DNA of 64,000 nt from contig NZ_JAIOAO010000001.1 in assembly GCF_021190955.1 (NCBI RefSeq), positions 2,046,001-2,110,000 of the forward strand, in the 5' to 3' direction. The first letter of the stretch is position 1. Each line of letters starts with the position of its first letter. The stretch is from Parachryseolinea silvisoli (GTDB taxonomy: Bacteria > Bacteroidota > Bacteroidia > Cytophagales > Cyclobacteriaceae). The notes under the pieces are model-generated. The model did no database searches and was not told where the DNA came from. It was given only the letters and a program-made list of their open reading frames with translations. Both the position numbers and the translations under genes were made by a program. Of this stretch, positions 5,236 through 24,039 are shown one piece after another.

Positions 5236-5244
5236 CGCAATGCG

Positions 5245-5289
5245 CCTGGCGCAGATCTTAGCCCGTCTCGGGCGAGACCTGTGCCCAGG
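5245..5289. repeat. Dispersed GC-rich imperfect palindrome, copy 1
   Basis: A 45-nt imperfect palindrome beginning CCTGGCGCAG and ending CTGTGCCCAGG, with an inner GCCCG...CGGGC hairpin. It lies between two convergent 3' ends (5235 and 5297). A clearly related copy occurs at 45322-45367: both share CTGGCGCA, then TCTTAGCCC, a variable tip, GGGCG, AGAC and TGTGCCCAG. It resembles REP-type elements and may also act as a bidirectional terminator. Confidence 0.7.
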
Positions 5290-9125: not shown

Positions 9126-9776
9126 ATGCAGTTATCTACGTTTTTGCAAGATTTGTTTACACATGGCGATGTGGCAATCGAACCCCGCATACAGCCCCTC
9201 AGTGACGAGGACGAGCAGGCCGCCGAGGCCCTGTTACGACAATCATACGCCCGCGACATACTCGACATGCCCCACACAGCACCGGCGTTTGACAGCGCCG
9301 CCGCCCGGTGGGGTGCCCTCTATTTATATCGCTCCGTGCAAGCCGCCGTCCTGCGCGACCTGGACGATGCCCTGTTAACCAACCTCCTGGCCGACTATAC
9401 CGGACCACGCACCCACGCTGCCCTGTATTCCGCCGACCTGTGCCTGCGTTACCTGCGCGACCTGGCGTGGCTGGCCAAAGGACTGGCGCCCGACGATATC
9501 TTGCTAACCTACCTGCAACGCATCGCCCAACGCTGGCCCCTCTCCACGGTGGGCATGGCCGTCGACAGTACGACCGACCTCGACACGTTATGGGAGCACC
9601 CCTCCCTGCGGCAGGTGTATATAGACCGGGTAGTCCGCACCCGCGACAAGACCGCATTGGGTCACGCACGCGTACGCGAGGCGGTACACGCCTCGTTAGG
9701 GGACTATGCGGCCACGCTGTGGCCAGACGCTGAACTGAATTCTTCTATTTCTTCTTTGTATGGAGACAACCTTTGA
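9126..9776 (+). CDS. Helical protein opening a MoxR-vWA-bpX ternary operon
   Basis: 216 aa, alpha-helical, acidic, with no signal peptide or membrane helix. I recognise no catalytic motif. Characteristic stretches include DEQAAEALLRQSYARDILD, RWGALYLYRSVQAAVLRDLD and ADLCLRYLRDLAWLAKGLAPDD. It is the first gene of a five-gene run and overlaps the MoxR ATPase gene by 17 nt, so the two are surely co-translated. Its position fits one of the accessory proteins encoded with MoxR/vWA/beta-propeller ternary systems. The specific bpX family cannot be assigned by eye. A likely role is adaptor or scaffold for the ATPase, by inference only. Confidence 0.8.
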   Translation: MQLSTFLQDLFTHGDVAIEPRIQPLSDEDEQAAEALLRQSYARDILDMPHTAPAFDSAAARWGALYLYRSVQAAVLRDLDDALLTNLLADYTGPRTHAALYSADLCLRYLRDLAWLAKGLAPDDILLTYLQRIAQRWPLSTVGMAVDSTTDLDTLWEHPSLRQVYIDRVVRTRDKTALGHARVREAVHASLGDYAATLWPDAELNSSISSLYGDNL

Positions 9777-10911
9777 TAAAAACCACCTGGTCGACAAACT
9801 AACCGCGGTGCTCGCACACCTGAAAACGACCTTTGTGGGGAAAGACGATATCATCGATCTGATGGGTATCTGCCTGGCTGGCCGGGAAAACCTTTTCCTC
9901 CTGGGCCCGCCCGGCACCGCCAAGAGCGCCATGGTGCGGGGACTTGCAAACCTGCTGCACGGCAAGACCTTTGAGTATTTGTTAACACGCTTTACCGAAC
10001 CGAACGAGCTGTTTGGTCCGTTTGACATTCGCAAGCTGCGCGAGGGCGAACTGGTGACCAACACCGAGGGCATGCTGCCCGAGGCAAACCTCATCTTCCT
10101 CGACGAGCTGCTGAACGCCAACAGCGCGATCCTGAACAGCTTGCTGTTGATTCTTAACGAACGCATCTTCCGTCGTGGTCGCGAAACGCGGGCACTGCCC
10201 GCCCTCATGATCGTCGGCGCCAGCAACCACCTGCCCGAAGACGAAGCCCTGCAGGCACTCTTCGACCGCTTCCTGTTGCGCGTTCGGTGTGATTACGTCG
10301 ACCCGGCTTTGTTGAACCAGGTCTTGCAGGCCGGCTGGCAAATGGAACGCGCTGCCACCCCCGTCACGCCGATGATTGCCTACGACGAGCTGGCCGCCTT
10401 GCAAAACCTGACCAGCGAGGTAGACCTGCAACCCATTATACCGGTATACCTCGACCTGATCCGCCAGCTGCGGCAGGCAGGCGTACCGGTATCTGACCGC
10501 CGCGCGGTAAAACTGCAACGGCTGATTGCCGCCAGCGCCCTGCTGTGCAAGCGCACAACGGCGATCGTCACCGACCTGTGGGTACTGCGGTATATCTGGG
10601 ATACAGAAGAGCAAATCGAATTGATTGCCGGTATGGTCGATACCGCGCTGGAAGCAGGCGCCGACGAACCTGAGCAACACCCGCGCGCGACCACGCGCAC
10701 AGGCCCCGACGCCGATGCCCTATACCGCGAGGTGGCCGCTTTGTCCACCCGTTGGGATCTACCCGAGCTGCCCGCCAGCGAGCGGTCGATCATCAAAGAC
10801 CGCCTGCGGTACCTCAACGGCCGCAGCGCCTGGATCGCTAACGACACGCAACGGGCCTACGTGCAGGAGCCGATCGAAGCCCTGTGGAAAAAAGTGCTGC
10901 AACACCCATGA
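9760..10911 (+). CDS. MoxR/RavA-type AAA+ ATPase of the ternary system
   Basis: 383 aa. Walker A GPPGTAKS at ~49-56, Walker B with catalytic Glu in IFLDELLNANSA (~113), sensor-1 region IVGASNHLPEDEA (~150) and arginine-finger region LFDRFLLRV (~168). The C-terminal third contains the helical lid and an extension like that of RavA. MoxR ATPases remodel or load partner proteins through vWA-domain co-factors. A vWA-containing partner is encoded two genes downstream, which makes the functional pairing concrete. The upstream overlap is 17 nt and the downstream gene begins inside its stop codon (ATGA), both signs of strict co-expression. Confidence 0.94.
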   Translation: METTFDKNHLVDKLTAVLAHLKTTFVGKDDIIDLMGICLAGRENLFLLGPPGTAKSAMVRGLANLLHGKTFEYLLTRFTEPNELFGPFDIRKLREGELVTNTEGMLPEANLIFLDELLNANSAILNSLLLILNERIFRRGRETRALPALMIVGASNHLPEDEALQALFDRFLLRVRCDYVDPALLNQVLQAGWQMERAATPVTPMIAYDELAALQNLTSEVDLQPIIPVYLDLIRQLRQAGVPVSDRRAVKLQRLIAASALLCKRTTAIVTDLWVLRYIWDTEEQIELIAGMVDTALEAGADEPEQHPRATTRTGPDADALYREVAALSTRWDLPELPASERSIIKDRLRYLNGRSAWIANDTQRAYVQEPIEALWKKVLQHP

Positions 10912-11618
10912 ACGAATATGTCTTCACCCTTCGCCTGACCGATGCCCCCGCGCTCGCCACGGTGCGTCACCTGCCCCAGCTACAGGCGGCCACCGATGAC
11001 GCATGTGTGTGGCTCCGCATAGACGGTCCCGCCGACAAAGCCGTGTGGCAACTGCCGGCACAGCAACGCTATCTGGCGAATGCGGACGGCGTCCTTTTTC
11101 CGGTCGGCCACGTGACGCCTATCGGCAAGTTGCCAAAATTGAAATGGAAGAAGCTCACTGATTTTATGCCGCTAAAACCACCGGTATCGGCCATGCCAGG
11201 CATCGCCCAGGCACTGTATACGGTGAAATTAGTGCCATCCACAAAGGATCACGACAGCGCAGCATTATTCGTAACATTCGATGCATGGCAACACTATGTA
11301 CTGGCCGCCCCTGCGGCACGCCTGGCGCGGCTACGCTTTGCCGTGTCCGAACGTCGTGAAGTATTGATCCTGGGCACACCCCTCCCACCGCTACCGGGGC
11401 TGGCATGCTGGCGGCAAAATGATCTCATATTGCCGACAGGGTGGGATTTCGAGGCACCATTCCTGGGCGAGCTGGTCACGCGCCGGCTCAACCCGCAGGG
11501 CGACGCAATCCTGTACATAGACACGGCCGGTCACTGGCAACGTATACTCCATACACAATTTGTACCCGCCTCGCGCAGCGCGGTGCGGCACACACAAACA
11601 CGACTGGCGGATGTATGA
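10908..11618 (+). CDS. Beta-rich bpX-type component of the ternary system
   Basis: 236 aa from the ATG that overlaps the MoxR stop (ATGA); a GTG 24 nt earlier is less likely. The protein has no membrane segment. It is rich in short beta strands: AVWQLPAQQRYL, ALFVTFDAWQHYVLAAPAARL, DAILYIDTAGHWQRI. Xaa-Pro turns such as GTPLPPLPG join them. It overlaps the next gene by 8 nt (ATGTATGA). By position and composition I take it as one of the small bpX-labelled components found between MoxR and the vWA protein in these systems; a family-level assignment needs a profile search. Confidence 0.75.
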   Translation: MNEYVFTLRLTDAPALATVRHLPQLQAATDDACVWLRIDGPADKAVWQLPAQQRYLANADGVLFPVGHVTPIGKLPKLKWKKLTDFMPLKPPVSAMPGIAQALYTVKLVPSTKDHDSAALFVTFDAWQHYVLAAPAARLARLRFAVSERREVLILGTPLPPLPGLACWRQNDLILPTGWDFEAPFLGELVTRRLNPQGDAILYIDTAGHWQRILHTQFVPASRSAVRHTQTRLADV

Positions 11619-14025
11619 TATCATAGAAAATACTCTCGGTTATTTTCAATCGTCCAGAAAGTCGTTGTGGCAATGGAGTGCCGACGGCGAAGTGGTGGAG
11701 CTCCAAACGGGTGATACCATTGCCTATCGCGAAGAGCTCGTACTCCTGCTGCAATACTTCACAGACCAGGGACTACCGTCACTACAGCCTTTATTGCTTA
11801 TACTTTACGCTTGCCTGGATAGGCCTGACGGCATTGAAAAAACGGAGACGGGTAAGATACTGAAGGGATGGACCGTGGTAGCCGGCCCGCCCATTGTAAA
11901 ACTCATGCAGGTAATTCAGGGACTGCCGGCAGAATATCGCACCGGCGCACGCAAGGGGCTGCTGTTGCAAGAGATCTTCCGCGATGCGAGGCCGTTCGTC
12001 CCTCCCGAACATGCACGGGCCATACTGGATGAATTCCGCAGCGGCCGTTTGAATGCCCGTGTCCTGGAACAGCCCCTGTCGGCGCAGTATCAAGATATCA
12101 ATCTTCGCGTTCTGCACGACGCGTCAAAGCGGTTTCCTACAACGGAATCACTGCTGCTCCGCTTGCGCACCGGCCTCGACATACTCCCCGGGGAGGCACC
12201 CGGCATCATACCCGAACTGCCGCCCGAGGATCTGCTGCTGCAACTCCTAAGCGATCCCCAAACAGAAGGCGTAGCGCGACTCACCCAACGCCTGGTGGCC
12301 GCCCTGCATATAACCATGCATACCGAAGCCGCCGGTGACCTACCCCTGGGCGGCTATGCCGACATCAGCACCCGGGGCGATTTTGACCGCTTGTTGTTAA
12401 GCGAGCTCGCATACGACGACGCCATGCTCACCGCCCGGCTGGTGAACAACGAAGCGCTCTACCTGCGCCGCGAAGAACCACCCGACAGCGTGCACCGCCA
12501 ACGCGTCATCCTGCTCGACACCACGTTGCTGCTCTGGGGCTTGCCACGCGTCTTCGCCGTATCGGCCGCGCTCGCCAGCACCCGCAACCTGCCGACACAC
12601 ACCACCGCCCACGTCGTGGCATTGGGAGGCGAAACACATACACCGCTCACGCTCTCGACGCGCGAGGGCATTGTACATGCACTGGAACAACTGGATGGCG
12701 CGTTACACTGCGGCGCCGCCCTGGAAAATGTCATCCGGCGCGGTGGCTTTGACGACCAGGCCGACTACTTATTGATTACCGATGAAGAAGTGTTACAAGA
12801 TCCTGATTTCGACACTATATATCGCACCGTCCGTGAACAGCTGCAGTTCCTGATCACCGTAAGCCGGCATGGCACATTACAATTTTATGCCCTGCGGAAC
12901 GGACGACGAAAATTGCTCAACAGCGCCACCTATGACCTCGCCGGGTTGTTGTTAACACACCAAAAAGCGTCAGATTCAGGCGACGCGGAAAAACCCGCCA
13001 CCTTTATACAAACACACCCGGTACCGCTATACTTTCCGCCGGTGAAGCTTCCCGCAACATCCGACCTGGTATATCAAACCGACACAGCCGTGTTCTGCGT
13101 CACGTCAACAAAACGGCTGCTCTACTGGCACCACCGCCAACACGGCGCTATCGAGCTATTACACCATATCCAGGGTAATAAGTACTTTTTCCACACCCTG
13201 GCAAACGACGAAGTCTTCCTGAGTCTACTCGTACTGGACACCACAGACAAACAACTGCATTACTATAAGTTTGATCTGAAGCACGCAACGCATGTGCATA
13301 TAGACTTAACTGCGCACTTCGAGACAGGCCCTGTATTCATCGCTGCATCCTACATGTTCTTTTTAGGGAATCACGGCCTCACCGGCATCGATTGTCGACA
13401 GGCCCGGCTGGTTTCCGACAAAGAGCTGCTGGACATTCCGGAAATAGGACTGAACATCGAACACGCCCTCGGTCGCGAAACAATGTTCCGGCGTCTGAAT
13501 CATCTCCGGTATAAAAACGACACATTCTCACTCCCGAAAATGCGCCACATGACCAACGTAAGTTTTACTATTCTGCAACGTGTGAGAAGCGTAGTAGTGA
13601 CCTCGGGGGGATATCTTTTGATCAATGGAAAGATGTTGCGTCTGGGAACGTTGGAACTGATCCACATGCGGGGAGACGAAGCGCTGGGATCTCATTTCCC
13701 TGCAACCTCCGGGAAGTCTCGCACCATGACAGACAATCCAGCAGTGAGGTTCTTTCCTTTCCGCTGGGCACAAGGTGCCCGCGCCTATGGTGACACGCGT
13801 GGGCTACTCCACCTCGAAAGTGAAAACACCGACATACCTGCCATTACCCTGGTACTCAACCTCGGGGAAACCGTGACGTGCTGGTCGAGCGATGGTCACG
13901 TCTGTGGATCTTCCTATTTTATCCGCGACGAAAACCTGACACAACTACCGGCCGGGGAGTTTTATGAGAAGTATCTAAAACGTTTTATCGATGATATCAT
14001 CCAGCACCATCGGCCTTCGTTATAA
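11611..14025 (+). CDS. vWA-domain plus beta-propeller protein of the ternary system
   Basis: 804 aa from the ATG overlapping the upstream stop. The first ~290 residues are largely helical. A von Willebrand A-like domain follows (~295-450): RVILLDTTLLLWG stands where the metal-site DxSxS loop should be and YLLITDEEVL supplies the later acidic loop. After a linker, residues ~470-804 are repeated beta blades (AVFCVTSTKRLLYWHH, VFLSLLVLDTTDKQL, VTCWSSDGHVCGSSYF), consistent with a beta-propeller. Because the metal-site loop reads DxTxL, metal binding may be weakened or lost. Established knowledge: vWA proteins are the usual partners of MoxR ATPases. Inference: this is the adaptor that couples the ATPase to a target through its propeller. 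Confidence 0.85.
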   Translation: MYDIIENTLGYFQSSRKSLWQWSADGEVVELQTGDTIAYREELVLLLQYFTDQGLPSLQPLLLILYACLDRPDGIEKTETGKILKGWTVVAGPPIVKLMQVIQGLPAEYRTGARKGLLLQEIFRDARPFVPPEHARAILDEFRSGRLNARVLEQPLSAQYQDINLRVLHDASKRFPTTESLLLRLRTGLDILPGEAPGIIPELPPEDLLLQLLSDPQTEGVARLTQRLVAALHITMHTEAAGDLPLGGYADISTRGDFDRLLLSELAYDDAMLTARLVNNEALYLRREEPPDSVHRQRVILLDTTLLLWGLPRVFAVSAALASTRNLPTHTTAHVVALGGETHTPLTLSTREGIVHALEQLDGALHCGAALENVIRRGGFDDQADYLLITDEEVLQDPDFDTIYRTVREQLQFLITVSRHGTLQFYALRNGRRKLLNSATYDLAGLLLTHQKASDSGDAEKPATFIQTHPVPLYFPPVKLPATSDLVYQTDTAVFCVTSTKRLLYWHHRQHGAIELLHHIQGNKYFFHTLANDEVFLSLLVLDTTDKQLHYYKFDLKHATHVHIDLTAHFETGPVFIAASYMFFLGNHGLTGIDCRQARLVSDKELLDIPEIGLNIEHALGRETMFRRLNHLRYKNDTFSLPKMRHMTNVSFTILQRVRSVVVTSGGYLLINGKMLRLGTLELIHMRGDEALGSHFPATSGKSRTMTDNPAVRFFPFRWAQGARAYGDTRGLLHLESENTDIPAITLVLNLGETVTCWSSDGHVCGSSYFIRDENLTQLPAGEFYEKYLKRFIDDIIQHHRPSL

Positions 14026-16744
14026 CGAGCAACCGCGCCATACACCCCGTGCGGCATTGCTCCGCGGCCACGAGCCCCTGGCGTGGCTGCAAGAGATCAG
14101 CGCGTGGAACATCGATCCCGCCCTGCTGGCGTGTTATGTCATGCCCGAATCCATCCACTCCGTTGCGCCCGGCGGATTGTTTGTCATTTTCCCTCCGGAT
14201 ACTGTACCCGCAACCGGCCCCCGGACCGACCTGTATGGCCTCAGCGACGAACATCTTTATTTACCCATACACGCTACCCTTACACCGGCGCTGGCCAACG
14301 ACGAGCTGCAGCGCATCTTGTTATGGGATGTGCAGGTGTTTCATCCCCGCACAGGACTTGTCGGATTCGAGCCAACCGACCTGCTGGACCTGGCCTCGCT
14401 GCTGGATTTTATACCCGCGCAGCCTGTCTCCTGGGCGCAGGCCCACGAAGGCAACGCCACGCCGCCGCCGCTGGTGAACATCCGCATCGTACCGGCAAAG
14501 GCTACCGATCTGCTCCAGTCCTTTCACGATACCATCGATCGCCAACCGCTCCAGGACATTCCTCCTCCCAAAAGCGAAAAGTCATCGGAGTCGTGGACTG
14601 ACCGTATCAAACGAAAGCTGCTAAAGACAGCATTATCGACGATCGAAAAAATGCTGGACAAGGTGGAGCGGAGCACGTCCAAATTTCTCTCCGAAGAGGA
14701 AAAAAAGAATGCAATGCAAAAAGCCAACGAGAAGTTGGCAAATCCCGACTACAAACCGGGTTTACTAAGTCGTCTCCTTCGGCGGATGCACGAAAGCCTG
14801 GAAGACCTCGAACGCAAGCGCCGGAACGAGCTAAACCGATTGGTGCTGCTCTTTGATGAAAACATGGACGAGGCACTACGCTACGCCATACCGTTGAACA
14901 ATCCCTACGCACATCGCGGCACCGTGCCGCCCTCGGCAAGCCTGCATCGACGAGACAATATGAGCTTCGATGCCAGCAGCGTCGGCGGGGGCAGAGGCGG
15001 TGACGTCTGGAATACGGACAACCACTACTATACCCTCCGTCAAAAATACCTGAACGCCGCACGCCAGGCCACTGAACGCGGCGACTTTAAAAAGGCTGCC
15101 TATATATACGCCCACCTGCTACACGACTTTTCTGCCGCGGCCAACGTACTGGAACAAGGTGGATTTTATCGCGACGCCGCCACGCTTTATCGGGATCACC
15201 TCAAAAATATACCCGCAGCAGCGGAATGTCTGGAACGTGGCGGGCTATTGTTGGATGCCGTCGAATTGTACAAAGAGCTAAAGAAACACGAAAAGGCAGG
15301 CGATCTATACCGGCAGGCGCAATTGCTGGAACACGCGGCCAACCAATATACGCACAGCGCCCAACAAGCCCTGAACAGCGGCGACTATCTCGATGCCGCG
15401 CGCATCCATCAGCAAAAGTTAGAGCAGCCCAGGCAGGCAGAAAACATTCTGTTACGCGGATGGACCGAGTCACTACAGGCAGAAGAGTGCTTACAATCCT
15501 ATTTCGGCTTACTGGCACAAACCGACGAGGCCGCCGTACCACGACAATTGCAGGCCATCTATACCGAGACCCCCGAGGCCAAACGCGACACTTTCCTGCA
15601 GGTGCTCACCAACCTGGCACGTAAAAAACAACTGCGCGACGAAGCGCACGATACATCACGCCGGCTGGCTTACACCATCATAGGACAACAGGTACAGCAA
15701 GGCAAGTCCAACAACCTGACCCTGCTGGAACACTTCCACCCCGACGACAGGTTGTTATCCCAGGATACCCGCCGGTACATCAACGTGCAACAAAAACGCC
15801 TGCGCGAAGAACAAGCAGCCCTATGGAAGCTCGATCCCCAAATCCGGTGGTTCAAAGCGGTATGCCACCGTAACCAGTTTCTGATTCTGGGCATAAAGGG
15901 CGCGTACCTCCAGCTGGCCCGCGGTAATTGGCATGGCCACATCGAATACCACAGCTGGCCGGAATATATACGGCGGGACAGCCAGATCACACTCATCACC
16001 GAGCCCTATAACAGCCACCAGGTCATCTTACACAATACGCACGGCGTCGCCTTCAACGACCTGACGTTACCGAAGTCAACACATTTCGACGATGAGCTCG
16101 TCATCACCTCGCCTACCAGGCTGCCCACCGATGCTATCGGCTACACCTTTAAACCCAACGGTGAGATTGTCGCTGTTAAAAACAACAACGACAGCGTGAG
16201 CCTGATGTATTATACACCGGCGTTTGAACTAAAATACCCGAAGGAATATAAGCTGAACGAGTTTATCATGACCCAGCCGGCCCATCCAATCCTACACGCG
16301 CCCTACCGCGACCGAAAATTCTATATCGGTATTGGCAATCAATTGATCGAAATCTTCGAAGACGGCGACATCTATGTCCATCGGCTGACAGACACCATCA
16401 CCCGCATCACCCTGGCGCCGGCATACGCCAACCCCTACATCATTATTTCAACACCCAGCGGCAGCATGTTATTTAAGGAACAGCTCGGCGCAGCGTTGCT
16501 CACGGCCGAAGATTATTTTGCCGCGACACTTGTCGATGCTTGCTTCATTTCCGTTGATCACTTTGTACTCGCGAGCCGCCACCAGGCAACGGTATACTAC
16601 GTACTGGACGGAAAGCCCAAAGAAGTTTATACAATCGAGCCCCAAAAACCGATCATCGCACTGTTAACCACCCATAAAAAAGACCGCTTCGCCCTCGTTT
16701 ACCAGGACGGCAGCATGAGCCCGCACACCGCGACCAACCAATAG
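13991..16744 (+). CDS. bpX6-like protein with helical solenoid and C-terminal beta-propeller
   Basis: 917 aa, the largest product of the operon, overlapping the vWA gene by 35 nt. The N-terminal ~180 residues form a mixed domain with LLWDVQVFHPRTGLVGF, resembling bpX6-type N-termini. Residues ~195-300 are highly charged and helical (KRKLLKTALSTIEKML). Residues ~345-500 are short ~20-residue solenoid repeats built on the theme AAxxLExGGxYxDAAxLYxxH. From ~617 to the end come beta blades (FLILGIKGAYLQLARGNW, TYGFTFK-type strands, DGDIYVHRL), a probable propeller. The protein looks like a recognition or scaffold subunit, with repeats for protein binding at both ends. No enzyme motif is visible. 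Confidence 0.85.
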   Translation: MISSSTIGLRYNEQPRHTPRAALLRGHEPLAWLQEISAWNIDPALLACYVMPESIHSVAPGGLFVIFPPDTVPATGPRTDLYGLSDEHLYLPIHATLTPALANDELQRILLWDVQVFHPRTGLVGFEPTDLLDLASLLDFIPAQPVSWAQAHEGNATPPPLVNIRIVPAKATDLLQSFHDTIDRQPLQDIPPPKSEKSSESWTDRIKRKLLKTALSTIEKMLDKVERSTSKFLSEEEKKNAMQKANEKLANPDYKPGLLSRLLRRMHESLEDLERKRRNELNRLVLLFDENMDEALRYAIPLNNPYAHRGTVPPSASLHRRDNMSFDASSVGGGRGGDVWNTDNHYYTLRQKYLNAARQATERGDFKKAAYIYAHLLHDFSAAANVLEQGGFYRDAATLYRDHLKNIPAAAECLERGGLLLDAVELYKELKKHEKAGDLYRQAQLLEHAANQYTHSAQQALNSGDYLDAARIHQQKLEQPRQAENILLRGWTESLQAEECLQSYFGLLAQTDEAAVPRQLQAIYTETPEAKRDTFLQVLTNLARKKQLRDEAHDTSRRLAYTIIGQQVQQGKSNNLTLLEHFHPDDRLLSQDTRRYINVQQKRLREEQAALWKLDPQIRWFKAVCHRNQFLILGIKGAYLQLARGNWHGHIEYHSWPEYIRRDSQITLITEPYNSHQVILHNTHGVAFNDLTLPKSTHFDDELVITSPTRLPTDAIGYTFKPNGEIVAVKNNNDSVSLMYYTPAFELKYPKEYKLNEFIMTQPAHPILHAPYRDRKFYIGIGNQLIEIFEDGDIYVHRLTDTITRITLAPAYANPYIIISTPSGSMLFKEQLGAALLTAEDYFAATLVDACFISVDHFVLASRHQATVYYVLDGKPKEVYTIEPQKPIIALLTTHKKDRFALVYQDGSMSPHTATNQ

Positions 16745-16750
16745 CCGGCA

Positions 16751-17299
16751 TTACTGCCGCTGCAGATAGGCCGTCGGCACATGCTCCGTGAGCCATACAT
16801 TATTGTCCGAGCAAAAGAATGTATAGCCATCCACACGCATACGGGCAGCATCGACCACCAATACAACGGGCTTACCATGTCGTTGTCCTACACGACGCGC
16901 CGTTTCATCATCCGCGCTCAAGTGCACATGATGGCGGCTGCGCTTGTCCAGGCCCGTCTTCTCTATAGAAGACAGAAACGCTTCAGCGGTACCATGATAG
17001 AGTACAGTCGGCGGTTCGCTTACAGCATAGGCCAGGTCGACGGCTACCGAGTGCCCCTGGCTGGCGCGAATACGTGCCCGGTTCTCATCGTAAATAAACC
17101 GCTGCTTACTGTTGGTCGTCACAACGTGATCGAGCTCCGCCGGAGATACGGCATACCCGTTCCGGCTCAGTTGTTTTAACAAGATTCCAACATCGGTCCA
17201 ACCGTGTTCATCAAGAGTAATGCCTGCGGCCTCGGGCGCATGGCGCAGCACAAGACTCAGGTATTTACTGATGCGGGTATTTTCTTTCTCCGTCATCAT
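16751..17299 (-). CDS. kptA: RNA 2'-phosphotransferase KptA/Tpt1
   Basis: 182 aa, full length for the family. It removes a 2'-phosphate from RNA by transfer to NAD+, giving ADP-ribose 1'',2''-cyclic phosphate. Family motifs are all present: SKYLSLVLRHAPE (Arg19, His20), RIRASQGHS (~76-84), LYHGT (~100-104), the Arg-His segment KRSRHHVHLS (~119-128) and VWLTEHVP near the C-terminus. In bacteria the substrate is uncertain because the 2'-phosphate of fungal tRNA splicing does not normally form. The gene runs convergent to the MoxR-vWA-bpX operon with 6 nt between stop codons, and upstream of it lies a DinB-like gene in the same direction. Confidence 0.95.
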   Translation of the reverse strand: MMTEKENTRISKYLSLVLRHAPEAAGITLDEHGWTDVGILLKQLSRNGYAVSPAELDHVVTTNSKQRFIYDENRARIRASQGHSVAVDLAYAVSEPPTVLYHGTAEAFLSSIEKTGLDKRSRHHVHLSADDETARRVGQRHGKPVVLVVDAARMRVDGYTFFCSDNNVWLTEHVPTAYLQRQ

Positions 17300-20727: not shown

Positions 20728-21288
20728 TTAGAGGTCTTCGCGGTGAATGATACCGCCCCACTCCGCGGAATATATATACTCGCCTTTTACAAGCTGGCCG
20801 ACATAATCTTCAATCCACGCTTGGAACGAATCGGCAATGATGGGCCGCTCGGGCGCATCGTGCCACATGCGAATGATCTGCCCTTTGCGTCCACCGGGCG
20901 CAGGATCAAGATCAATACAATAATGATTGCCACTGCCGTCGTACGTAATGGGGATCCACATCGGATTCCACCAGTCGCTCTTTACACCTTCCTCCGGCTC
21001 TGAGTATGTGCCATGAAAATTGCCATTGTCCAGCAGGTCTCGCCATACGCGCCACTCCTCCAAAATCCGCTCAGTCGACAGCAGCTCCTCTGTTTCAATC
21101 AACCCCTCGCCGGGCTCCTGTCCATTGTGCACCTTATAAAAATCGCGAAAAGCGGCAGGCAGCGTGACCCCCATAGCCTTCTCCAGGTTAGCAAAATCGC
21201 CTGGCAGCGCGCCAGGATTAAGCTCGTCGAGCAAATGCGCAGCATGCTCCTCCAGCCAGCGTTCGAGTTTTTGCCAAATTGCAAGCAT
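20728..21288 (-). CDS. SMI1/KNR4 (SUKH) family protein
   Basis: 186 aa. The core signature is clear: FANLEKAMGVTLPAAFRDFYKVHNGQ, then WNPMWIPITYDGSGNHYCID and the C-terminal SFQAWIEDYVGQL. SUKH proteins in bacteria often serve as immunity proteins against nuclease or deaminase toxins; many are solitary and of unknown role. No toxin gene is adjacent here. It probably forms a transcription unit with the dicarboxylate symporter downstream (18-nt spacing). Confidence 0.88.
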   Translation of the reverse strand: MLAIWQKLERWLEEHAAHLLDELNPGALPGDFANLEKAMGVTLPAAFRDFYKVHNGQEPGEGLIETEELLSTERILEEWRVWRDLLDNGNFHGTYSEPEEGVKSDWWNPMWIPITYDGSGNHYCIDLDPAPGGRKGQIIRMWHDAPERPIIADSFQAWIEDYVGQLVKGEYIYSAEWGGIIHREDL

Positions 21289-21444: not shown

Positions 21445-24039
21445 CTACAACTCCGAACAATAAATCTTCTCATACGCCTCTTGATCGTACACTTCCTTTC
21501 GGATAAGCTGGCCATCATGGCTATAATATATCACCACAAAAAGTGACGCCTCCTCCACATGCTTCTCCGTAAAATACATCGGAATCTCCGCCGAGCCTAC
21601 ATTAACAATGTCACTATACGTGATGGGAATAACCGTTCCCCGCTGACTATGAAACACGCCATAGCGATTATCCTGGCGAACAATAGCGAGCTTCTCGGCA
21701 GGCGTATCGCGAATCAATTCGTACCCCTTGATATTGTGCAGCACAACCGTGTGCGTAGCGATGTTGTACAACATCCAATAGGATTCTTTTTTCACCAATG
21801 CGACAGAGTCGTTCCACACATTGATCTCCTTAAACTCGAAGTCGCCCAGGGGGTTGTTGTCCCACCCGATAAAGCCATAATGTCCTTCTCTATAGGCGAC
21901 GAGCGCCTGGTCGTTATACGGCTGCAGGTTCTTGGCGTAAAGCGGTTTGATCAGCTTCTTCCGCACGATGTCGAACATCCCGAACTTCATCGCCCGCAGC
22001 AGCGACACTGTACCGTTGCTGGCCGAGCCGATCGCATCGTACTCGATCGGCAGCACCGGCTTGCCGTCGTCCGTCACCAGACCTTTCTTTTCTTTGCGCG
22101 ACACGATAAATAACCCTTGCCCCGCATATTGAATGCGATCGTACGCACCGCTAAAAAGCTTACGGCCATCGCGGTTATAGACTGTGCGCGCCTTATTAAA
22201 ATCTACCGCCAAAAAAGCAGATGAATCTTGCCCCGGCACAAACTCAACCCGTGCCGCTGCTTCGAACGGCAACACCACGCCCGACGTGATGTGCACAAAG
22301 AGGCTATCGTTCCTGACGCCGACAGCAAAAGGCCCCGCCATATAAAGTGAATCATAGCGGGCGATCGCCGCAGCCTGGCGCATCGGCAGCAGCAAATGCC
22401 AGGTATACCCCGCCCTGGCCGCGACCCAGGGCTCGTTCACAGCAACCGAGTCGTAGGGGTCGGCGGTATTGTGACGCGTATCGTAGAGTATATGCCGGGT
22501 ATCCGCCGTAGTTGCCAGCGCCCCAAAGAACGCCGGGGCCAACCGTTGTTGCCGCGCCGGCACCTGAATATCGAGATGCTGACCAAGCACACCTTCGTGT
22601 GAGCCGGCGCGAAACCAAATTAATCCATTGGGCCACGGCTTGACATCATTAAAGACATCGCGCAGGCCGAGTGGCTGCTGGTCGGCAATACACGCCACTT
22701 GTTCTAACGTCGTAAGCCAGTACTTGTCATTCTTTTTTAAGATCACCACATTACCGGCTGCCTGTACGTCGTCCCACGATGCGCCGAGTAACAACCGTCC
22801 CGCCAGGGTGCGCACCGACCAGTAGTCGCCGGTGCGTATCGCCAGCAAACGACCGCTCAGCATACGGGCATCCTGAACGCACGAGTCGAGTGGTATAAAT
22901 CCCGTTTTGTGCACGACACGGGTACATGCGTCGCCTTGTACCAGCAGAAATCCGGCCCCAAGATCTTCCACGCCCGAGACGGCGCCACGATAGATCATTA
23001 CCCCATTTCGTGCCATAATACCGTTAGGCAGAATAAGGATGTCTTCATGTATGTTTCCACAGAGATATTCACTTTCCAGCTCGTCTATTGCAGCGTCCAG
23101 TACTTCTTTCCCGTCCTCATCCATAAAACCAAAATGACCTTTATGCAGGAAGGGAACGAGGTATCCCTGGTCGGCTATCCGCACGCGGTGGAGCGAGTCC
23201 TGCTGCAATACCCGGGGAAGTTGCTCTGCTGTCAGATCTTCGGGCAGCAGGTGATATAGCAGGTTACGGGCGCCGATGCGCTCGCGGCTATGCGGGTATT
23301 TTTCAATAAAAGCTATAAAAGGCTCGGCCGTGCCCGCCGCCGTGGCAATCTCAAAGATATTACGCTCGGCTTCGGCGCGGTAGGGCGAGAGGGGGTGGTC
23401 GTGTACAAACTGCTCGTAACTGCGCAGGTGCTGGTCGCGGGTCGAGGCCTCGTAGAGCAGCTGCTCATAGCGGCTCCGGGCCTCGGCCGCCTGGCGGGCG
23501 TCGGGGTACCGCGCGAGGTAGTGGCCAAAAGCCTGGTAGGTATTGTCCGTTACGGCCTGCTCGAAGGCGACCTCATCACGCAGGTCGCGGGCCTCCTGCT
23601 GCTGCTGCGCCGCCGGGAACGAAAGCAGAAAATCGACATAAGCCTTTTCAGTGTGAAGCTTACGCGCACGGCCGAAGGCCGCACTGTCGATCTGCCCACG
23701 CAGGCGTAGCAGAATGAGGCTGTCGAGCGGAAAACGCTTCAGGCGGTCGCGTTGCCGCGGGCTTGTATGCCGGTAGTCGGCCTGGGCCGCCAGGGTGTAG
23801 CGATAGGCGGAATCGACCTGGAATGCGGGGTTTTCGGGGGCGAAGAAGTAGCTGGCCATCACATAGTTGGCCGTGGCATTGACACTGTCGCGGTGCAGGG
23901 CCTTGCGCCCCTGCTCATAGGCACGCTCCCATTTATGCCGCGACAGGTTGCTCCAGGCCGCACGTTCGGGCGCGAATTGTGCCCAAAGGCACACAGGAGC
24001 CAGCAGGGCCAGGCATACTATAGTCAGCGGTTTGATCAA
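21445..24039 (-). CDS. Secreted WG-repeat protein with N-terminal TPR-like region
   Basis: 864 aa with a cleavable signal peptide (PLTIVCLALLAPVCLWAQ). Residues ~25-270 are helical, TPR-like and Gln/Ala/Arg rich (YEQGRKALHRDSVNATANY). From ~280 on come WG/KWG-type repeats of ~35-40 residues, e.g. HFGFMDEDGKEVLDAAID, KKGLVTDDGKPVLPIEYD, KFGMFDIVRKKLIKPLY and RYGVFHSQRGTVIPITYSD. Several repeats in the middle are degenerate. Such proteins are common in Bacteroidota and are thought to be periplasmic or surface interaction scaffolds. No enzymatic motif seen. It stands alone between the SMI1 gene and a divergent conserved gene. Confidence 0.88.
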   Translation of the reverse strand: MIKPLTIVCLALLAPVCLWAQFAPERAAWSNLSRHKWERAYEQGRKALHRDSVNATANYVMASYFFAPENPAFQVDSAYRYTLAAQADYRHTSPRQRDRLKRFPLDSLILLRLRGQIDSAAFGRARKLHTEKAYVDFLLSFPAAQQQQEARDLRDEVAFEQAVTDNTYQAFGHYLARYPDARQAAEARSRYEQLLYEASTRDQHLRSYEQFVHDHPLSPYRAEAERNIFEIATAAGTAEPFIAFIEKYPHSRERIGARNLLYHLLPEDLTAEQLPRVLQQDSLHRVRIADQGYLVPFLHKGHFGFMDEDGKEVLDAAIDELESEYLCGNIHEDILILPNGIMARNGVMIYRGAVSGVEDLGAGFLLVQGDACTRVVHKTGFIPLDSCVQDARMLSGRLLAIRTGDYWSVRTLAGRLLLGASWDDVQAAGNVVILKKNDKYWLTTLEQVACIADQQPLGLRDVFNDVKPWPNGLIWFRAGSHEGVLGQHLDIQVPARQQRLAPAFFGALATTADTRHILYDTRHNTADPYDSVAVNEPWVAARAGYTWHLLLPMRQAAAIARYDSLYMAGPFAVGVRNDSLFVHITSGVVLPFEAAARVEFVPGQDSSAFLAVDFNKARTVYNRDGRKLFSGAYDRIQYAGQGLFIVSRKEKKGLVTDDGKPVLPIEYDAIGSASNGTVSLLRAMKFGMFDIVRKKLIKPLYAKNLQPYNDQALVAYREGHYGFIGWDNNPLGDFEFKEINVWNDSVALVKKESYWMLYNIATHTVVLHNIKGYELIRDTPAEKLAIVRQDNRYGVFHSQRGTVIPITYSDIVNVGSAEIPMYFTEKHVEEASLFVVIYYSHDGQLIRKEVYDQEAYEKIYCSEL

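Follow-up and report, generated by a model that had tools for sequence, protein, structure and literature searches.

Beta-propeller MoxR-vWA ternary systems (vWA, von Willebrand factor A) were described from sequence comparison in 2020 by Kaur, Burroughs, Iyer and Aravind (PMC7159879, section 22), who reported that a GXXXTAKS variant of the P-loop is frequent among them, that a subset carries extra linked beta-propeller (bpX) proteins, that the N-terminal variable region of the third component includes a membrane-spanning segment (not stated to be universal), and that this component typically ends in tetratricopeptide repeats (TPR) and a propeller; the article also notes a degenerate vWA site for some of these systems. 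NorQ and NorD are a MoxR ATPase and its vWA partner that load nitric oxide reductase with iron (PMC13036017); the vWA protein reaches into the ring with a finger, and ATP hydrolysis is proposed to twist the partner. For VMAP systems with diversity-generating retroelements, a further report (PMC10907252) proposes the variable domain of the vWA protein as the sensor. Here we analyse a 64,000-nucleotide window (i.e. the whole stretch of DNA under study; Parachryseolinea silvisoli, contig NZ_JAIOAO010000001.1, positions 2,046,001 to 2,110,000), in which positions 9126-16744 hold an operon of five plus-strand open reading frames (ORFs) with successive overlaps of 17, 4, 8 and 35 nt.

All five operon proteins match dedicated Pfam families of the MoxR-vWA-beta-propeller ternary system above the curated cut-offs, and it is virtually certain that the operon is a member of this system. 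An earlier interpretation made from the DNA alone (hereafter the sequence-only reading) had claimed five overlapping same-strand genes and had assigned them to the MoxR-vWA-bpX ternary systems: the ORF coordinates and overlaps agree with the former, the profile search (bpX and bpMoxR matches) bore out the latter, and its statement that such systems had been described computationally is corroborated by the operons in Kaur et al. (PMC7159879). The operon is an intact and full copy of an already known system, to which the present analysis adds refinements and no new kind. A chance origin of the layout is ruled out by the Pfam E-values and by the same gene order (bpX4-MoxR-bpX2-vWA-bpX3), which is complete in 28 of the 35 loci compared. 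Beyond the Pfam assignment, NCBIfam and PADLOC searches of the five proteins gave nothing specific, the Pfam search returned no VMAP, iSTAND or FtsH match for them, and among the literature matches listed (most subscription journals lying outside the search) no experimental test of the MoxR-vWA-bpX subsystem was found.

The five genes and their products

The first gene (9126-9776, plus strand) encodes a helical bpX4 protein of 216 amino acids (PF19920, E-value 2.4e-61, residues 3-201) and opens the operon in each of the 28 complete loci. It is followed by the bpMoxR AAA+ ATPase (9760-10911, plus strand, 383 amino acids; PF20030 1.9e-100, AAA_lid_8 3.2e-10), whose motifs are intact by motif reading (Walker A GPPGTAKS, a GXXXTAKS variant, at 9904-9927 on the plus strand; Walker B LIFLDE; sensor 1 GASN; SDRR), just as the sequence-only reading had stated for the Walker and sensor motifs. 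The GXXXTAKS form is found in 34 of 34 MoxR ORFs (GPPGTAKS in 32, GAPGTAKS in 2). The NCBIfam model of the ATPase RavA matches bpMoxR at 4e-49, yet with 168 bits against a cut-off of 681 bits. The third gene (10908-11618, plus strand; start ATG at 10908, a GTG at 10884 would lengthen the ORF) encodes a beta-rich bpX2 protein of 236 amino acids (PF19918, 7.4e-60); by these E-values both bpX4 and bpX2 answer to the description of the extra linked bpX proteins.

Gene 4 (11611-14025, plus strand; start ATG at 11611, a TTG at 11560 would lengthen the ORF) encodes the vWA protein of 804 amino acids, which consists (all on the plus strand) of a bpX0 domain (residues 34-184, 11710-12162; Pfam 7.4e-30), a divergent vWA region (residues ~285-450, 12463-12960, with D303-x-T-x-L and D391), a fast-evolving predicted propeller region (residues 481-716, 13051-13758) and a bpX1 domain (residues 717-796, 13759-13998; Pfam 1.8e-23). 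The ivWA family matches residues 245-305 with an E-value of 9.8e-4, below its cut-off (18.8 vs 35 bits). In an alignment of 30 sequences, the first Asp (D303) and a Ser or Thr at the third motif position occur in 30 of 30 sequences, the second Asp (D391) in 5 of 30, and a Ser at the fifth motif position in none. The structure model of gene 4 (built from a two-sequence alignment of the window and Dawidia soli, locus L006) has a mean predicted local distance difference test (pLDDT) value of 32; with this low-confidence model Foldseek gave no match at E <=0.001 (several of the weak ones are propellers by title), profile self-comparison for blades gave no convincing internal repeat (best alternative E 0.046), and the gene 4 profile gave two matches to PDB sequences at E 0.11 and 0.15. 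In one relative a ribosomal L7/L12 C-terminal domain (4.2e-16) is inserted into the vWA protein (L077:6861-9482), an insertion reported for some Bacteroidetes (Kaur et al., PMC7159879).

The third component, encoded by gene 5 (13991-16744, plus strand, 917 amino acids), comprises bpX3 (residues 7-177; Pfam 8.4e-42), a linker, a TPR-like alpha-solenoid (residues ~341-606, 15011-15808, plus strand) and a C-terminal beta-rich extension (residues 607-917, 15809-16741, plus strand), the last being a predicted propeller found in one subfamily only (subfamily A, see below). The solenoid, a region matched in 28 of 28 complete loci, is the best-modelled part (ten-residue pLDDT means of 58-79 at residues 421-510, as compared to a mean of 39 for the whole model, made from the same two sequences); TPR matches appear in some relatives of gene 5, one of them just over the cut-off (TPR_6 in L024), and SNAP matches are sub-threshold. 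Foldseek with the low-confidence whole model gave 72 matches at E <=0.001, with low TM-scores (template modelling scores) and no aligned range, and the best 50 of the 72 are, by title, mostly WD40 propellers, together with IFT-A and NSF-alphaSNAP complexes. Self-comparison of the C-terminal profile produced no convincing blade repeat (best alternative E 0.1), the comparison of the gene 4 and gene 5 profiles was unconvincing (E 0.0079 with 5% probability), and the gene 5 profile had no match to PDB sequences at E <=0.1. The fold labels of the sequence-only reading are less secure than the family assignment: the vWA domain combines a sub-threshold ivWA match with the conserved D303 and a degenerate motif, and the propellers are predicted ones, without support from sequence repeats. 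No membrane-spanning segment was found in gene 5, where the highest Kyte-Doolittle mean over 19 residues is 1.64 (at residue 843). A hydrophobic, transmembrane-like segment (19-residue mean >2.0) occurs in the third component of 13 of the 28 complete loci, and none was detected in the window, Dawidia soli, L017 and L019.

Sequence change, distribution and the two subfamilies

Pairwise rates were obtained from one genome pair, the window operon and that of Dawidia soli (L006; proportion of synonymous differences 0.61 in the propeller region), in which counterparts of all five genes lie in the same order. Protein identity falls from 93.7% in MoxR through 82.8% (bpX4), 77.9% (gene 5) and 77.5% (bpX2) to 68.9% in the vWA protein. 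Residues 481-716 of the latter retain 126 of 230 positions (54.8%), as compared to 1854 of 2314 (80.1%) in the rest of the operon, and no stretch of equal length in the operon is less conserved (residues 1-33 of the same protein, a short segment, are equally low at 54.5%). Over 30 sequences the mean pairwise identity of this region is 0.179, vs 0.287-0.476 for five other segments. Judged from these alignments, no other fast-changing part of the operon is as large as the predicted propeller region of gene 4, positive selection being unproven.

The ratio of nonsynonymous to synonymous rates (dN/dS) of the five genes lies between 0.057 (MoxR, strong purifying selection) and 0.202, that of one flanking gene is 0.205, and within gene 4 the values are 0.280 (residues 451-480), 0.267 (1-33), 0.257 (481-716) and 0.250 (bpX0). 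Purifying selection on all five genes contradicts the view that the operon is a decayed or misassembled remnant devoid of function, to which, with five open frames and the full collinear set in Dawidia soli also standing against it, we assign a negligible probability.

The distribution of divergence also bears on the published prediction (Kaur et al., PMC7159879) of an anti-phage or anti-plasmid conflict system proper, in which the complex would be set off by invasion, with the N-terminal part of gene 5 as the effector near the membrane. In the genome pair compared, other parts vary more than the bpX3 N-terminus (identity 75.1% for residues 1-177, 63.5% for the linker, residues 178-255, and 54.8% for the vWA propeller region), and the window copy has no transmembrane segment; we hold this form of the conflict hypothesis as a tentative one, somewhat short of favoured.

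Presence was scored by the bpX2 family in samples of genus and relatives, order and phylum that partly overlap. The genome of the window has one copy, and beyond it the family is patchy, being found in 4 of 58 relatives (including 3 of the 6 other genomes of the genus), 20 of 389 genomes of the order and 9 of 394 of the phylum. One plasmid (L029, Hymenobacter yonginensis) carries all five operon genes; on this plasmid the operon has an integrase gene ~8 kb upstream and, on its downstream side, glycosyltransferase and acyltransferase genes. A scan of viral contigs with the operon ATPase gave no match, and no operon gene was found in L007. As for the incomplete loci, four of the 35 are cut by a contig end (L018, L026, L059 and L081), and three from a single genus (L077, L082 and L086) have no bpX3 gene, L082 having in addition no bpX4 match and L086 neither a bpX4 nor a MoxR match. 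An IS200-like transposase lies between MoxR and bpX2 in L077. Two of the 28 complete loci have one extra ORF within the operon, namely a 193-residue ORF of unknown family between bpX4 and MoxR (L027:11194-11775) and a 569-residue ORF between the vWA and bpX2 genes (L078:8503-10212), which from the look of its sequence we take to be AAA-ATPase-like.

An unrooted tree of three proteins (830 columns; 34 of the 35 loci, L086 being left out since it has no MoxR or bpX4 match) groups the window and its congener Dawidia soli with loci of the Hymenobacter type and of f5 (a group of 10 rows, support 100/100; subfamily A). Three further loci of the host family (f1), two of which belong to other congeners, fall outside the ten-row group, and a single clade for the host family is rejected (approximately unbiased test, p-AU 6.8e-61). 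This split of one family across two deep subfamilies points to horizontal exchange, or to an old duplication accompanied by losses. Of the tree rows, 15 have an unusual letter make-up, and subfamily A accounts for at least 8 of these; moreover, the tree being unrooted, L019 of the host family could sit beside the ten-row group. An independent trait agrees with the two subfamilies: ~300 extra C-terminal residues are present in the third component of 8 of 9 complete subfamily A genes (exception L085) and in 0 of 19 complete genes of subfamily B (counted within the same ORF, separate downstream genes not having been checked for propellers). In 5 of these 19 the third component is split into two ORFs.

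The patchy distribution, the two subfamilies and the carriage by a plasmid speak for a conflict system. They are also relevant to an alternative according to which the operon encodes a housekeeping chaperone for proteostasis or complex assembly (RavA-ViaA or NorQD-like), needed for the maturation of an endogenous complex, perhaps one in the membrane. This is what the well-studied MoxR-vWA pairs do, and both the strong purifying selection on MoxR (dN/dS 0.057) and the transmembrane-like segment in 13 of 28 complete third components are in line with it; patchy presence with two subfamilies in one genus is odd for a housekeeping factor, and the fast-changing propeller region fits it poorly. We consider such a chaperone unlikely, albeit deserving of serious attention.

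Genomic surroundings

No gene constantly neighbours the operon, the commonest adjoining family being that of the extracytoplasmic function (ECF) sigma factors (6 of 34 loci), which speaks against a dedicated client enzyme next door and, to that extent, against the chaperone. Window neighbours with a Pfam match are of ordinary kinds: an ECF sigma factor, Big_9, KptA, an AraC regulator, DinB, a dicarboxylate symporter, SUKH and a WG-repeat protein. The KptA/Tpt1 RNA 2'-phosphotransferase gene (16751-17299, minus strand, 4.1e-49) is convergent with the operon and lies 6 nt past it; KptA adjoins the operon only in the window and in Dawidia soli, and was rejected as a functional partner, since all 7 genomes of the genus have a match to it (over 40 residues only in G006), whether the operon is present or not. 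The SUKH (SMI1/KNR4) protein (20728-21288, minus strand, 1.9e-27) belongs to a family that includes toxin immunity proteins.

A simple empty operon site was not found. The operon is located inside a block of ~186 kb (the window side ends at 21445, the far side near G000:C5:1,881,704), which G003 lacks at this position; G004 and G005 share the gene order of G003 there, and G006 differs again. In G003, G004 and G005 the chromosome continues from the gene at 21445-24039 into genes whose own-genome relatives lie ~186 kb off, and this junction indicates that the operon sits in a lineage-variable block, the absence of which may reflect insertion or rearrangement. At 5243-5286 the window holds a short sequence that is matched in several contigs of G002, whose operon contig begins just past it; the break in the G002 assembly may thus be due to a dispersed repeat.

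The surroundings were further compared with PADLOC (E threshold 1e-10), using 159 of the 199 genes flanking 31 loci; the other 40 comprised 16 genes of L006 and L080, both nearly identical to loci already included, and 24 removed by hand, among which were additional members of recurring families and ORFs truncated at the end of a stretch. As control served the first 100 of 160 genes (in listing order) from 13 of 20 random regions of the same genomes. We obtained 13 family-protein pairs among 69 flank genes and 16 among the 100 control genes, and 35 families among the 90 further flank genes (the best 25 with one protein each, mostly through PDC-S05 models). An association of the operon with defence islands is thus unsupported by this comparison. 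The 69 flank genes included two with SWIM_XIII and one with WGR_XIII. SWIM- or WGR-type genes directly adjoin the bpX operon at L020:2810-4456 and L023:12235-16655 (by Pfam, L020 has a SWIM match below its cut-off, and L023 has WGR, DUF6493, DUF7824 and DUF7825). Genes of this type are also found in association with MoxR and vWA genes.

Possible function and comparison with known systems

The reading that we consider best, and on which our confidence is evenly balanced, is that of an accessory AAA+ machine that remodels proteins, has probably spread by horizontal exchange and selects its target through the divergent propeller. It starts from what was directly established, i.e. the gene content and order, the motifs, the two subfamilies and the location of most sequence change. 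A remodelling mechanism as such is probable for the bpX operon. As the MoxR class would lead one to expect, bpMoxR would form an ATP-driven hexamer, on whose ring the vWA protein would dock by its bpX0/vWA part, offering the propeller to a target protein. Gene 5 (with bpX3, the solenoid and, in subfamily A, a second putative propeller) would be a scaffold or a second receptor that positions the complex, presumably close to the membrane in those relatives that have a transmembrane segment and in the cytosol in the window copy; bpX4 and bpX2 would be small subunits, which nearly always accompany the others. ATP hydrolysis would then twist or unfold the captured target, most likely a variable, perhaps foreign, protein that the complex recognises. 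The sequence-only reading had likewise proposed that propeller and solenoid domains recognise a target and that the ATPase remodels it: this is reasonable and fits NorQ/NorD, which by analogy offers a structural precedent for a MoxR protein driving a vWA partner and so favours the mechanism, with the target and the propeller folds being putative. By the same kind of analogy, the fast-changing gene 4 propeller may be the counterpart of the VMAP variable domain, without a retroelement.

Several results weigh against the remodelling machine as here conceived. The MIDAS motif (metal ion-dependent adhesion site) of gene 4 is degenerate as judged from the alignment, and the predicted propeller folds of genes 4 and 5 are unproven by repeats or by the low-confidence models. 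Other gene 4 segments have dN/dS values as high as the propeller region, so relaxed constraint rather than an arms race is possible there, and, given an unrooted tree with an unusual letter make-up in most subfamily A rows, the two subfamilies may stem from an old duplication with losses. Moreover, the Pfam search found no effector, nuclease or peptidase domain in the five operon proteins, none of these had a PADLOC match below E 0.025 (the best being that of the operon ATPase to GajA, at 0.025), and around the 31 loci no clear PADLOC excess over the control regions was seen (distinct proteins not being countable). An operon without effector domain and flanks without a clear excess of defence genes are also points in favour of the chaperone, and the latter finding tells against a conflict system proper.

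A conflict role, which the sequence-only reading had put forward, is accordingly supported by one part of the record (patchiness, exchange, two subfamilies in one genus, a plasmid copy) and disfavoured by another (no effectors, no PADLOC match, no defence neighbours or excess in the flanks); we regard it as plausible and unproven, with our judgement leaning slightly to the negative side. A bolder form of it, which we think improbable, is a modular recognition machine with the vWA propeller as specificity domain, i.e. a bacterial AAA+-driven innate sensor that would detect and remodel invader proteins directly, without a separate effector; its two exchanged subfamilies would differ in the third component (an added C-terminal propeller vs an end at the solenoid), with membrane anchoring varying in both. 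The intact copy, the congeners with the other subfamily and the mapped fast-changing domain make the prediction of vWA-propeller specificity directly testable and, should the conflict role fail, a class of predicted defence systems would need to be reread as chaperones.

Among known systems, the VMAP, iSTAND and FtsH ternary systems (PMC7159879) share with the operon the MoxR-vWA core, the vWA being distantly like the ivWA of the FtsH system (18.8 vs 35 bits), and differ from it in that its five proteins lack an effector domain and gave no match to VMAP, iSTAND or FtsH. NorQ/NorD resembles it in having a MoxR AAA+ ring that acts via a vWA partner, by a mechanism that is perhaps common to both, whereas the bpX operon has no constant client gene, and has extra bpX subunits, predicted propeller regions and a degenerate MIDAS. 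RavA/ViaA of Escherichia coli likewise has a MoxR ATPase, and differs in that the RavA-specific cut-off is missed by bpMoxR (168 vs 681 bits). The partner protein of RavA is, besides, built differently from the bpX vWA protein. The closest likeness is with the bpX systems of Kaur et al.: five genes in dedicated families, the GXXXTAKS P-loop, a putative vWA of degenerate type, a long vWA protein with bpX0 towards its N-terminus and bpX1 towards its C-terminus, and a third component with bpX3 and a predicted solenoid. From these the present operon departs in that its third component has no membrane-spanning segment, that the same-ORF C-terminal extension is confined to subfamily A (8 of 9 vs 0 of 19 complete genes), and that the largest variable part is here the vWA propeller region, not the N-terminus of the third component.

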